Positions 48,523 to 55,964 of a stretch of 64,000 nt of DNA are shown here, in pieces. The DNA is from Oceanobacillus oncorhynchi. Its GTDB lineage: Bacteria; Bacillota; Bacilli; Bacillales; Amphibacillaceae. Where the stretch lies: the NCBI RefSeq assembly GCF_000821065.1, contig NZ_CDGG01000001.1:1-64000 (forward strand), read 5' to 3'. The position numbers and the translations under genes were made by a program. How positions within the stretch are numbered: the stretch's first letter is position 1; every line of letters begins with the position of its first letter. The notes under the pieces are model-generated. The model saw only the letters and a program-made list of their open reading frames with translations, did no database searches and was not told the origin of the DNA.

Positions 48523-48667
48523 TCCTCTCCCCACTTTCCTTCCATCACTTTAACTTATTTCTATGATTTACCGGAAGCGATTAGAACAGGTTTTAAAAGC
48601 AGCAGGATAATTGACAACTTTCTAAGATTCATTAGCAGCTTCCTTCTTTAGACGAGAAGAACGGACA

Positions 48668-48790
48668 TTGAACTACCCCCGCTTATCAACCTTCAAGGTT
48701 GATTGAAGTGGGGGATTCCTAAGAACACCAACCTATCGGTCAGTTATGGATTAGGCTAGCCCCGCAGTCCCTGCGGTTAATCGCAATGCT
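48668..48790 (-). ncRNA. Probable omega RNA (reRNA) of TnpB
   Basis: The tnpB 3' end and the following 80 nt form stem-loops: CCGCA/TGCGG at the last codons, then the large right-end hairpin 48676-48714. In TnpB systems this region gives the omega RNA scaffold, and the bases just past the element act as guide (here starting TGTCCGTTCTTCTCG on the minus strand). Inferred by family, not shown expressed. Confidence 0.6.
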
Positions 48791-49923
48791 TCTTTACGAA
48801 GATTCCTGCTTGCGTTCTTATCTCTTTGGTGATGGCATTGACAGATATCACACGTCCATGCACGCAAAGCAAGTTTTTTAACGTCTTGGTTTTGGTGTCC
48901 ACAATTGGAACACAGCTGACTGGATGGATAGTTTTTAGCGACCTTAACAATCTGCTTTCCATACCAGGCCGCTTTATATTCCAGCATTGTTCGGAACGTT
49001 GACCAGGATACTTCGCTAATCGCTTTCGCAAGATTTTGATTTTTTAACATGTTTTTCACAGATAAATCTTCTATTCCGATGATATCGTGGTTTTTGACTA
49101 TCTCGGTGGAGATTTTATCTAACATGTCTTTTCTTTTATTAGTAATTTTCTCGTGAAGCCGGGCTACTTTTCTTTTTTGTTTCTGCCAATTCGCCGAGCC
49201 CACCTGTCGCCTTGAAAGAATCACCTGCGCTTTTGCCAGCTTCTTTTCTAATGTCCGGAAAAACCTTGGATTTTCATACACCGTCCCATCGGAAAGGGTT
49301 GCAAAATCGGTTATTCCAACATCGATGCCTACAGAAGAACCTGTTTTTTCATAGTGCTTAACTTCCGTTTCAACCACAATCGAAACAAAGTACTTGCCTG
49401 AAGGATTGCGCCGGATCGTTGCATTGATAATACGTCCTTCCACTTCCCGACTTTTGGCAAAACGAACCAATCCGAGCTTAGGCAGTTTGATATGTTTATC
49501 CAATACAGCAATGTTTCTATTGACATGTTTCGTGGTATACGATTGAACAGGATTCTTTTTTGATTTAAAACGAGGTGCCTTATTCTGCTTCTTATAATAG
49601 CGCGTATAGGAATCATTCACATTTTCCACCGCTTTTTGAAGGGCAATGCTATCGACTTCTTTGAGGAAGGGATAGTTTTTCTTCAATTCTGGAACCGCTT
49701 TGATTGCCTTATTTTTATTGAAAAATTCGCCCTTCCAATTATTTTGAAGAAGCTGTCCGTTTTGTATCATTTCATTCACCGTATGCCAATAGTGGTCTTT
49801 TTCTTTTTGTTTTCCTGTAAAATAGTTGTAGACAAAGCGGAAGCAGCCGATTGTCTTATGGATGAAGGTGATTTGTTTTTTGTTCGGATAGATACGAAAA
49901 CGAAATGCTTTTTTTACTTTCAT
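48751..49923 (-). CDS. tnpB: TnpB RNA-guided endonuclease, IS200/IS605 family
   Basis: 390 residues, the ancestor family of Cas12. It has an N-terminal HTH/OrfB_IS605 domain (KAFRFRIYPNKKQ), RuvC motifs with catalytic Asp in SVGIDVGITDFATL (about 195), Glu in IIGIEDLSVKNML (about 275), a CxxC-CxxC zinc finger (CSNCG and CDICQCHHQ) and the final RuvC Asp in HQRDKNASRN. All catalytic residues are present, so it may be active. AGGAGGT and a TTCCAA-17-TATAAT promoter precede it. It cuts DNA with omega RNA in the family. Confidence 0.93.
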   Translation of the reverse strand: MKVKKAFRFRIYPNKKQITFIHKTIGCFRFVYNYFTGKQKEKDHYWHTVNEMIQNGQLLQNNWKGEFFNKNKAIKAVPELKKNYPFLKEVDSIALQKAVENVNDSYTRYYKKQNKAPRFKSKKNPVQSYTTKHVNRNIAVLDKHIKLPKLGLVRFAKSREVEGRIINATIRRNPSGKYFVSIVVETEVKHYEKTGSSVGIDVGITDFATLSDGTVYENPRFFRTLEKKLAKAQVILSRRQVGSANWQKQKRKVARLHEKITNKRKDMLDKISTEIVKNHDIIGIEDLSVKNMLKNQNLAKAISEVSWSTFRTMLEYKAAWYGKQIVKVAKNYPSSQLCSNCGHQNQDVKKLALRAWTCDICQCHHQRDKNASRNLRKEALRLTAGTAGLA

Positions 49924-49945
49924 AGCTTCTTACCTCCTCTTGTCT

Positions 49946-49974
49946 ATTATATCAGAAGAAGGATGATTTTGGAA
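49946..49974 (-). promoter_or_regulatory. tnpB promoter
   Basis: TTCCAA (49969-49974), 17 bp, TATAAT (49946-49951) inside the element left end, with AGGAGGT following before the ATG. Confidence 0.55.
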
Positions 49975-50038
49975 CGTTTGTTCGACTCGGTGTTGGATAG
50001 TCGAGACGCCCTAAAGTAATCTTTTGTGCATAGGAGAT

Positions 50039-50566
50039 TCATCTCCCCCTCACCTCTACGCGCTTGAAGAGGGAGTTTTCTCTCATTTTTTTGATAAAGA
50101 AAGCAATCGTCCCTGCAAATAGAAGAATAATGAATACCAAAGACCACGTATTTATATAAGATGGAAGCCCTCTCGCAACACGAATATCATTCCATATAAT
50201 AAAAGGGAAGAGAATAGCTATCTCATTTTTTAAAACGTTCACCAGCATTCTGGAATTGATATATTGCCCTTTCACATTTGCTTCTGTTAGATTCCGATAA
50301 TTATATACATGTGGAAATCGTTCCATAACAGTCATCCCAAACCATAAAAGTAACCCGATGCCTAAGAGGATGAACAGTTCTTCCCTTCCTCCCCATCTTG
50401 TTACTTCCCCTGCTTCATTATAGTGTCCGGGAATCTGATTTGGAATAGCATCCCATGTAAAAATAATATACACAATAACACCAGAGTAACTCAGTATTCC
50501 CAGAACATTCAACAGCTTTTCAATTGCAGTCATTTTTAAGTTTAGATTCGGCGGATTGGTTTCCAT
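50039..50566 (-). CDS. DUF1648 membrane protein
   Basis: 175 residues with four or so membrane helices. The signature IPNQIPGHYNEAGEVTRWGG is that of DUF1648, found in small bacterial membrane proteins, some linked to SdpI-type immunity. No sdpI-like neighbour is visible. Start ATG 50566 (METNPPNLNLKMTA), with GAGGGG 9 nt before; the frame stays open upstream into intron sequence, which is not coding. The gene begins 32 bp past the group II intron and is boxed in by the TnpB element at its 3' end. Function is not assigned. Confidence 0.82.
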   Translation of the reverse strand: METNPPNLNLKMTAIEKLLNVLGILSYSGVIVYIIFTWDAIPNQIPGHYNEAGEVTRWGGREELFILLGIGLLLWFGMTVMERFPHVYNYRNLTEANVKGQYINSRMLVNVLKNEIAILFPFIIWNDIRVARGLPSYINTWSLVFIILLFAGTIAFFIKKMRENSLFKRVEVRGR

Positions 50567-50640
50567 AATAAGTGTCCCCTCTTTTTTTCTTAGAAAAATC
50601 GAGTAGAGGGAAAAGCTAAATAACTTTTCGCCCCTCTCAC

Positions 50641-50673
50641 ACCACCAGTACATACGGTTCCGTATACGGCGGT
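50641..50673 (-). ncRNA. Group II intron domain V
   Basis: An about 33-nt hairpin: ACCGCC pairs with GGTGGT, inner GTA/TAC and TACGG/CCGTA pairs with a GT bulge and small loop. The CGC in the 5' strand is the catalytic triad form seen in class C introns. Confidence 0.75.
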
Positions 50674-50678
50674 TCAAT

Positions 50679-51977
50679 TTATATTTCAGTGTGTACTTTT
50701 AGATAACGGTCTAAGGCAAAGGGGATACCTCTTTGCTTTAGTCTTTTATTAGACAATGCTCTCTGAACAACTTTCGACAACCCAGTAAATCGGAAACCTT
50801 TCCTACAATAGGTTAGCCCCTTGGCTTCTTCCTTTGGTATACCAAGTTGTATGAGAGATTTAATTCTCTTTTTGTTGTTCTTCCATTGTTTCCAGATAAT
50901 TACTCTTATTCTGGAGCGCAACTTCGCATCTATAGACTCTAAAACGCTCTTCATATTAGCTACCCTAAAATAGTTGACCCAACCATACATGACCTGTTTT
51001 AACTTGATGATTCTGTCGTTTAAGGAAATACTCCAATTTCGCTTTGTTAATCGGCGCAGTTTCCTTTGGAATTTTTGAACCGACGTTTTACTGGGTCTCG
51101 GTTGAAATTTCCTCTTATTTGAGTCATAGTAAAAACCAAAGCCTAGAAATGTTGTTTTCGTAGGGCGTGAGATTTTACTTTTCTCCATATTTACCTTTAG
51201 CCCCAGTTTCTCTTCGATAAATGTTGTAATGGAAGTAAGAACTCTATTTGCCGCCTTTTCACTTTTGACAAAGATAAGGCTATCGTCTGCGTATCTTACG
51301 AAACGCAGACCTCTTGCCTCCAGTTCCTTATCTAACTCATTCAACATAATGTTACTTAGAAGTGGACTAAGGTTGCCTCCCTGTGGGGTTCCTATAGTTG
51401 TATCTTCATATTTCCCATCGACCATCACACCACTTACGAGGTATTTTCGTATCAGAGAAATGACATCACCATCTTTGATTGTGTGCGAGATTATTCGCAT
51501 TAACTTATCATGATGGACAGTATCGAAAAATCGTTCCAGGTCAATATCCACTAACCACTGGTATCCGTCATTGATATATTCCAATACTTGCGTGATTGCC
51601 ATTTCGCAACTTCTTCTTGGTCTGAAACCATAACTGTAGTCACTGAATTGTTTTTCAAATATCGGGCTGAGCACTTGACTAATTGCCTGTTGGACAACTC
51701 TGTCAACCACTGTTGGAATACCCAATTTGCGCATCTTTCCATTTTCTTTCGGAATTTCTACGCGCAGTGCTGGCATTGGTTTGTATTTTCTTTTCTGGAT
51801 TTGCGTTCGCAATTCCTCTTTGTGTTTCCTTAGGTATGCTTTCAGTTCATTTACTGTTACGCCGTCTACCCCACCTGCACCTTTGTTTCGGTACACTCGA
51901 AGATAGGCTTCGTTCATATTTTGATCGCTTAAAATCTTTTCTAAAATTTCCACACTCGTTTCTTCCTTTCCTTTCAT
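50679..51977 (-). CDS. ltrA: Group II intron reverse transcriptase/maturase
   Basis: 432 residues, no frameshift. Reverse transcriptase blocks are clear: RNKGAGGVDGVTVNEL (RT0-1), VDIDLERFFDTVHHDKLM, IGTPQGGNLSPLLSNIML and the catalytic FVRYADDSLIFVKS. The X/maturase domain follows (RLTKRNWSISLNDRI, MYGWVNYFRVANM). There is no C-terminal HNH endonuclease, as in class C. The Tyr-Ala-Asp-Asp site is intact. It is encoded inside intron domain IV. Confidence 0.95.
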   Translation of the reverse strand: MKGKEETSVEILEKILSDQNMNEAYLRVYRNKGAGGVDGVTVNELKAYLRKHKEELRTQIQKRKYKPMPALRVEIPKENGKMRKLGIPTVVDRVVQQAISQVLSPIFEKQFSDYSYGFRPRRSCEMAITQVLEYINDGYQWLVDIDLERFFDTVHHDKLMRIISHTIKDGDVISLIRKYLVSGVMVDGKYEDTTIGTPQGGNLSPLLSNIMLNELDKELEARGLRFVRYADDSLIFVKSEKAANRVLTSITTFIEEKLGLKVNMEKSKISRPTKTTFLGFGFYYDSNKRKFQPRPSKTSVQKFQRKLRRLTKRNWSISLNDRIIKLKQVMYGWVNYFRVANMKSVLESIDAKLRSRIRVIIWKQWKNNKKRIKSLIQLGIPKEEAKGLTYCRKGFRFTGLSKVVQRALSNKRLKQRGIPFALDRYLKVHTEI

Positions 51978-52471
51978 GTGACGGAGAACACTTCTATTTT
52001 GACTATCCTCTGAGATACGCTCATACTTTCATCATTAACACATTCAGAAGTTTATTCTTCGTGCATTCATGGCGTAGAAACACTATAAATTGTTCAGCCC
52101 TTCATGATTTTCATCACTACTACGGCATCGGCTGACTTCTCACGATAAACCTTTTTCGACCAGCTTTCTTTTTAGGGGACTCCTCAGCTGTCCGTGAGAC
52201 CTCCCAGGGTAAGACAACTATCTTTCCTCTTTTACTCGCCTAATTTACTCTGCAGGGTTACGCACATCTTTTGGATTTTGACTTGTTATGGAGCCTTATC
52301 CGCCTACAGAGCCTTCGTATCAGATTTCTGTTCGTCGAGCCAAGATTTTGATACACGCTTCCTTCAGCCTTTACCTCACGATAAATGCTTTGCGCTTCTC
52401 TAGTGGTTGGTCGATGTGTACCTCCACAGTGGATTTCCACCACCTAGATAGTCGCCATGCCTGGCGCACAT

Positions 52472-52511
52472 AAAAAAGAATCAGGCAGCTTGAAACATAC
52501 TTGATTCTTTT
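52472..52511 (-). terminator. Terminator of yaaL, used as intron insertion site
   Basis: AAAAGAATCA (52502-52511) pairs with TGATTCTTTT (52474-52483) across an 18-nt loop, followed on the minus strand by TTTTAT. The group II intron starts directly after this tract. Confidence 0.82.
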
Positions 52512-55582: not shown

Positions 55583-55761
55583 GATTTCGATTCCCCTTAT
55601 TTGTCTCCTTCTTATTATACCCGATTAAAGGCTTGGATGAAAACCTTAGAAATGATTATCTGGAAGTAATTTATGTTTGCAAAAATTAGCTTAGAATTTA
55701 ATTTTTTTATGTTGAATAAAAAGGTTCGTCTAAATTTATAGAACTAATGTTCCTATTATGG
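55583..55761. other. Spacer between dnaX and the toxin module
   Basis: AT-rich. A TATAAT (about 55616-55621 on the minus strand) with a weak TTCATC -35 could drive dnaX. No gene seen. Confidence 0.45.
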
Positions 55762-55767
55762 TATAAT
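55762..55767 (+). promoter_or_regulatory. Extended -10 promoter of the toxin gene
   Basis: TATAAT preceded by TGG (extended -10) on the plus strand, no clear -35. The mRNA would start near 55774 with a leader of about 65 nt. Confidence 0.65.
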
Positions 55768-55810
55768 ACACTAAGATACTCACAGTAAGAAGTTAAACGG
55801 TGGAAGGTAC

Positions 55811-55833
55811 CATCTCCTATATGAAAGGAGGTG
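55811..55833 (+). promoter_or_regulatory. Hairpin that masks the toxin ribosome site
   Basis: CATCTCCT (55811-55818) can pair with AGGAGGTG (55826-55833), 8 bp with one G-U and a 7-nt loop, which would lock the Shine-Dalgarno AAAGGAGGTGAT. This is a known design in type I toxin mRNAs. Confidence 0.75.
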
Positions 55834-55839
55834 ATGCCT

Positions 55840-55929
55840 ATGGCTACTTTTGATGCCTTATCTTTAATGATCAGCTTTGGCTTGCTTATTATAGCCATTC
55901 TTTCATTTCATGATAAAGACCAAAAGTAA
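55840..55929 (+). CDS. Holin-like type I toxin peptide
   Basis: 29 residues: MATFDALSLMISFGLLIIAI then LSFHDKDQK. One hydrophobic helix (residues 6-23) and a charged tail match the putative holin-like toxin family (BsrG, TxpA and YonT are functional analogues). GGAGG is 8 nt ahead of ATG 55840. An upstream in-frame ATG at 55834 is too close to the ribosome site. Expected action: membrane insertion and growth arrest when the antitoxin RNA is lost. Too short to appear in usual gene calls. Confidence 0.8.
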   Translation: MATFDALSLMISFGLLIIAILSFHDKDQK

Positions 55930-55964
55930 AAAAACCACCCTTCGCTTGCCGGCAAACAGGGTGG
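55928..55964 (-). terminator. Terminator of the antitoxin RNA
   Basis: CCACCC/GGGTGG stem with an inner TTGCCGGCAA palindrome, followed by seven Us on the minus strand. It overlaps the end of the toxin frame. Confidence 0.78.

Follow-up and report, generated by a model that had tools for sequence, protein, structure and literature searches.

A single tnpB gene inserted in a DUF1648 gene

The window, by which we mean the whole 64,000-nucleotide stretch of Oceanobacillus oncorhynchi DNA that was analyzed, contains an insertion element of 1426 bp on the - strand (48668..50093), with its left end at 50093 and its right end at 48668. The element interrupts a gene for a DUF1648 protein (50096..50569, - strand), the reading frame of which continues into the inserted DNA. 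Between 48668 and 50093 the only gene is tnpB, an open frame of 390 aa on the - strand (49923..48751). There is no tnpA, in agreement with a sequence-only reading of this DNA that had called a TnpB-only element. Just upstream of the DUF1648 gene lies a group II intron with a reverse transcriptase/maturase (approximately 50590-52472, - strand; ORF 51977..50679), which matches Rfam group-II-D1D4 models and which the three relatives used for comparison lack at this position. Elsewhere in the window, at 55752-55931 on the + strand, there is a match to the Listeria sRNA rli28 that lies just above the cut-off (45.8 bits versus 45, E 0.017).

The tnpB product scores above the Pfam cut-offs for PF01385, PF07282 and PF12323 (OrfB_IS605, Cas12f1-like_TNB and HTH_OrfB_IS605), and matches NCBIfam NF038281 (IS200/IS605 TnpB) with 553.3 bits against a cut-off of 425. 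Judged by its sequence, it is an IS200/IS605-family TnpB. The best match among solved structures is 9yyg, an AI-designed nuclease, and the second best is 8bf8 (E 1.7e-86), which we take to be ISDra2 TnpB, as we do 8ex9, 8exa and 8h1j. The residues D191, E278 and D361 of 8bf8, presumably catalytic, align with D201, E285 and D368 of the window protein, and four cysteines arranged as CxxC...CxxC (C338, C341, C358 and C361) are common to the two. The three RuvC acidic residues and the zinc-finger cysteines that had been read from the letters are therefore all present. TldR regulators are nuclease-dead proteins in which the RuvC acidic residues have been lost; with D201, E285 and D368 all in place, that identity was ruled out.

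The best six named relatives of the gene come from O. jeddahense, O. neutriphilus and O. sojae (77-92%). We compared seven open copies, three from this genome and four from named relatives, leaving out the copies L058, L059 and those of G009, G007 and G016. In all 21 pairs dN/dS lies between 0.11 and 0.19. Within the three open copies of this genome all the catalytic residues are kept, and the pairwise values are 0.12-0.16. Such low ratios indicate that TnpB was kept functional while the family spread, and speak of past selection across the family and not of present use.

Upstream of the gene there is a Shine-Dalgarno sequence AGGAGGT (49932..49938, - strand), with AGGAGG found in 10 of the 11 copies in this genome, and an extended -10 element TGATATAAT (49946..49954, - strand) that is kept in 11 of 11 and has no consensus -35. 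A two-hexamer scan called no - strand promoter near tnpB, and so the earlier claim that the promoter is intact is borne out in part only.

The ends of the element and its target

The boundaries were located by comparison of the copies in this genome and by examination of empty sites. For the copies that possess a left end, the alignment begins at query positions 220-226, corresponding to approximately 50098 in the window; for those with a right end it ceases at 1656-1657, corresponding to approximately 48668. All 11 copies have TTTAT at the left end, and all 11 right ends close with TTCAA, the right cleavage site (48668..48672, - strand in the window), with unlike DNA outside. When other Oceanobacillus genomes are included, 20 of the 21 copies inspected have TTTAT at the left end; the remaining one is L161, where the anchor matched the right end and the left was not placed. 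The copies of G007 and G016 lie outside this count.

The DUF1648 host protein was matched in 38 of the 58 genomes searched. Three close relatives (G002, G009 and G015; 76-78% identity) make up the empty-site set, the other matching genomes being at most 42% identical. In all three the flanks rejoin at TTTAT with nothing inserted, the pentamer running directly into a TGTCCG-like sequence, and the guide bases described below continue the host gene in the joined site. The G015 gene has one in-frame stop elsewhere. Insertion has occurred 3' of TTTAT without target duplication at these three sites. Taken together, the copy alignments and the empty sites place the element at 48668-50093, with TTTAT at 50094..50098 (- strand) as its left-flank target and predicted TAM. 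The insertion lies near the 3' end of the DUF1648 gene. The native last codons are found on the far side of the right end. In their place, the frame enters the element and ends ...KKMRENSLFKRVEVRGR.

The sequence-only reading had placed the left end at 50015, next to a TTAC at 50016-50019 that it took for the TAM. The letters are present, and TTAC is the left cleavage site of IS608 (PMC5934647). This position is 78 bp short of the end found here: the copies are alike beyond it, as far as approximately 50098, the three empty sites join at TTTAT, and at the corresponding place TTAC is found in just 2 of 11 copies, with TTGC in 8 of 11. The copies and empty sites refute a left end at TTAC, and we give it virtually no credence. 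The comparison with empty sites that had been proposed as a check has in this way moved the left end and left the right end and guide unchanged; at 48668 the copies stop aligning and the three empty sites rejoin, as had been read.

Near the left end there is a hairpin GGAGATGAATCTCC (50033..50046, - strand) that we presume to be a binding site for a transposase. It forms part of the predicted single-stranded DNA fold of this end, which is only weakly better than that of shuffled sequences (z -1.45, with 16 of 200 shuffles as good).

The bases that directly follow the conserved right end constitute the predicted guide, TGTCCGTTCTTCTCGTCTAA (48648..48667, - strand), which is host DNA and for which we have assumed a length of 20 nt. 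The guide beginning TGTCCGTTCTTCTCG... that had been suggested earlier is correct. On searching this genome with TTTAT plus 15 guide bases, allowing up to 3 mismatches, the only match was the right junction of the element itself, where both of the 2 mismatches fall in the TAM. Over 28 genomes, the 20-base TTTAT plus guide pattern (up to 3 mismatches) gave 13 matches in 11 genomes, compared with 19 for the reversed control. TTTAT is named as a TnpB TAM in PMC12908284.

A predicted RNA structure at the right end

The final section of the element, 48668..48776 on the - strand, is predicted to form an omega-RNA scaffold. The consensus fold of 27 right ends (alignment A1; 11 from this genome and 16 from the genus) has 27 pairs in four helices: 48762-48776; 48751-48755 paired with 48718-48722; 48727-48744; and 48676-48714, all on the - strand. 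Helix 1 lies inside tnpB, and helix 2 includes its stop codon. The sequence GAAT (48715..48718, - strand) lies at the base of the terminal hairpin on its 5' side, and 10 of the 11 copies of this genome have it. From 38 right-end matches we left out 11, either because the match fell short of the end (L091, L100 and L107) or because approximately the last 50 bases alone were matched (L092, L093, L102, L103, L108, L111, L112 and one row from G005 that has no locus).

Folding the last 133 bases of the element as RNA gives -47.6 kcal/mol (z -3.18), and none of 200 shuffles was as good. Standard pairs occupy 98.3% of 727 cells across the 27 right ends, compared with 94.1% in shuffles, and the fraction falls to 31-54% if the partners are slid by 1-3 columns; the structure is favored in this comparison because the right ends are closely related and it was derived from their own consensus. 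Changes on both sides are found for 7 pairs in 22 cells (3.6 and 4.5 in shuffles), with 6 of 500 shuffles reaching 7 such pairs and none of 500 reaching 22 cells, values that relatedness among such close copies can inflate, as the tool itself warns. The covariation over 27 right ends supports the predicted omega-RNA structure at the right end. An RNA structure overlapping the 3' end of tnpB had been proposed at the outset, and the fold and the pair counts support it.

No Rfam family scored above its cut-off at the element. The sole match over the right end at a lax threshold was Ref70 (48680-48782, - strand), with 23.4 bits against a cut-off of 115 and E 0.32, which is too weak to count. Ref70 is an Enterococcus sRNA, and the match raises the question of whether Ref70 might itself be a TnpB omega-RNA.

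Sister copies of the element

The 4.6-Mb genome (G000, one contig) contains 21 pieces matching TnpB, and the right end is found in 11 places. Three copies are full-length and open, namely that in the window, L002 and L003. An insertion divides one further copy (L020/L004), the frame contains stops in two more (L005 and L006), and five are internally deleted, each differently (L010, L012, L019, L014 and L013). Elsewhere in the genome there are also a distant tnpB (36%, L009) and a fragment (L016). The insertion that splits a sister tnpB (L160, G000:C1:1261751-1263434) has two transposase-like frames and appears IS3-like by eye, and within the tnpB of L006 there is a short foreign stretch of approximately 68 bases in place of 11.

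The five shortened copies are 494-837 bp in length. They have lost the middle of tnpB and still have both ends, the -10 region and a complete scaffold at the right end. Having ends without an intact gene, they are PATE- or MITE-like, a description that was rejected for the window copy, the tnpB of which is open. Codon-position bias in the shortened copies seems weaker than between full copies, in small numbers. When L014 is compared with the window copy there are 6 differences in 388 positions of the coding remnants and right end, and 19 in 175 of the left end. Such a mosaic pattern suggests that copies have recombined with one another.

The 11 right ends have 11 different flanks. This is the side of the system that we find most interesting, five shortened copies with complete scaffolds and a -10 element beside three open nucleases. 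They might form a dispersed system with many guides, in which three open TnpB proteins serve eleven omega-RNA ends, five of them on shortened copies that would provide guides alone, so that a single nuclease acts in trans to guard numerous sites of insertion (or other targets) after the transposase has been lost. We think this unlikely. If the shortened copies were to express usable omega-RNAs then a single TnpB could serve many defective copies, and such sharing would bear on how TnpB-only elements persist without a transposase.

Within the order, relatives of the right end were found in 94 of 397 genomes, where the two best candidates per genome were scored. A megablast search of plasmids returned a single record, which matches 86% of the query at 71% identity, and that of phages gave no match. 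TnpB-only copies with such ends are present in other Oceanobacillus genomes, and TnpB-only is therefore one form in which such elements travel.

The search for a transposase

An element without tnpA would have to be moved by a helper in trans, as the sequence-only reading had concluded. The need for a helper is supported, but we have found none in this genome. There are three matches to Y1_Tnp, all stopped or partial, and thus no intact Y1 transposase. The first covers positions 2-109 of 121 and contains a stop, the second positions 1-45 with a stop, and the third positions 2-46 in an open frame of 79 codons. From their sequences none of the three looks functional. Across the genus, Y1 matches are present in 21 of 28 genomes, and many are open.

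By tblastn, we compared six of the Y1 proteins of the genus with 71 loci (two sets of 30 right-end loci and the 11 of this genome), which extend no more than approximately 1500 bases upstream from the right end and in some cases are cut by contig ends. Matches were obtained in 3 of the 71 (L103, L112 and L191), and none in the 11 loci of this genome. L103 and L112 are IS605-type elements with a TnpB approximately 37-38% identical to that of the window, and their right ends match over 51 and 46 bases only. The element L142 (in G003, containing the end of L103) is IS605-type with tnpA, a tnpB 38% identical and a similar last hairpin. The right end of L191 is 87% identical over 77 of 123 bases. 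Between approximately 720 and 1609, L191 is a chimeric remnant, in which an IS605-type left end and truncated tnpA are joined to part of a window-like tnpB and right end. Since L191 joins these two kinds of sequence, a transposase of the L142 type is our best guess for the helper. A further candidate, L146, has an open tnpA and a frame-broken tnpB that is 44-55% alike, but its ends look different by eye.

These results bear on whether the element is now simply an inert relic, of the same identity as in the reading we prefer and differing in whether TnpB still acts, its open frame being merely young. The state of the sister copies is consistent with decay, as eight of the 11 in this genome are deleted, stopped or split, and so is the lack of both an intact Y1 transposase in this genome and a consensus -35. 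L191 shows that such elements decay by recombination. Yet the catalytic residues and low dN/dS of the three open copies, the -10 element in every copy and the pairing in 98.3% of the right-end structure cells speak against an inert relic, and TnpB-only copies with such ends are present in other Oceanobacillus genomes too. We regard an inert relic as a serious possibility, at somewhat less than even odds.

Purifying selection in a genome where no helper is found could alternatively reflect domestication, with TnpB retained by the host for regulation or defense and guided from dispersed copies. Eleven right ends with eleven flanks, and five copies that keep both ends and not the nuclease, might be understood in that manner. 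Against this, the RuvC residues are intact, unlike those of the nuclease-dead TldR proteins, and each guide is merely the flank of its own copy. Moreover, the site is empty in all three relatives examined, so the position of insertion is not conserved. Domestication seems to us highly improbable.

A proposed mode of action

Our preferred interpretation, to which we assign a probability of about 0.87, is that this is an ordinary IS1341-type TnpB-only element that was moved in trans by a Y1 transposase, whose TnpB would cut the empty DUF1648 allele, and whose copies are probably now immobile. The gene, ends, target, guide and RNA structure have been read from the sequence itself, and for the remaining steps we draw on what is known of the family.

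From the form of the ends, a Y1 transposase supplied in trans would have moved the element as single-stranded DNA, recognizing the hairpins at both ends and cutting after TTTAT on the left and TTCAA on the right. The element would express TnpB, and the 3' end of the transcript would provide the omega-RNA scaffold. This would run on into host DNA, giving the guide that begins TGTCCGTTCTTCTCG... We infer that the window TnpB is expressed and active as a nuclease. By analogy with the family, its complex with the omega-RNA would cut TTTAT plus guide, as found in DUF1648 alleles that lack the insertion, and repair from an occupied copy would restore the element. The occupied junction, TTCAA plus guide, would be spared. 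As this genome yielded no intact Y1 transposase, the copies are probably immobile at present. TnpB would then act only on empty alleles brought in by recombination, or on replicons outside the assembly. Retention of transposons by cutting of the empty site, and gene drive in plasmids, have already been described in a preprint (PMC11870625).

Comparison with known elements

The closest comparison at the level of the protein is ISDra2 TnpB, where the alignment spans residues 4-384 of the window TnpB, with the RuvC acids and the four cysteines in register. It covers the TnpB protein only. ISDra2 has a tnpA of its own, and that gene is absent from the window element.

The right end resembles that of IS608 of Helicobacter pylori, for which PMC5934647 gives GAAT as G_R and TCAA as C_R. 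In both elements the terminal hairpin has GAAT at its foot, and the cleavage site has TCAA. The left site is TTAC in IS608 and TTTAT here, and the window element differs further in having no tnpA.

Ends-only derivatives of IS605 elements are known as PATEs (PMC7290912), and the five shortened sister copies are therefore at most a variant of these. Like PATEs as described there, they retain both ends and have lost the middle of tnpB. They differ in being longer, at 494-837 bp, and in carrying the -10 region and the whole scaffold.

The element as a whole corresponds to the IS1341 type. PMC9956272 describes the IS1341 elements as TnpB-only and of unclear autonomy, and lists 18 of them. Ten measure 1252-1393 bp and eight 1512-2382 bp, and their TnpB proteins are 362-489 aa long. 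The window element, of 1426 bp and with a TnpB of 390 aa, is like those described there in having one tnpB and no tnpA between its ends, with a supported hairpin at the right and a putative one at the left, and nothing fundamental sets it apart. What differs is the new sequence, the Oceanobacillus host and the target TTTAT. It adds to the group a cleanly bounded TnpB element with the target TTTAT, an omega-RNA supported by covariation, and a known natural guide.
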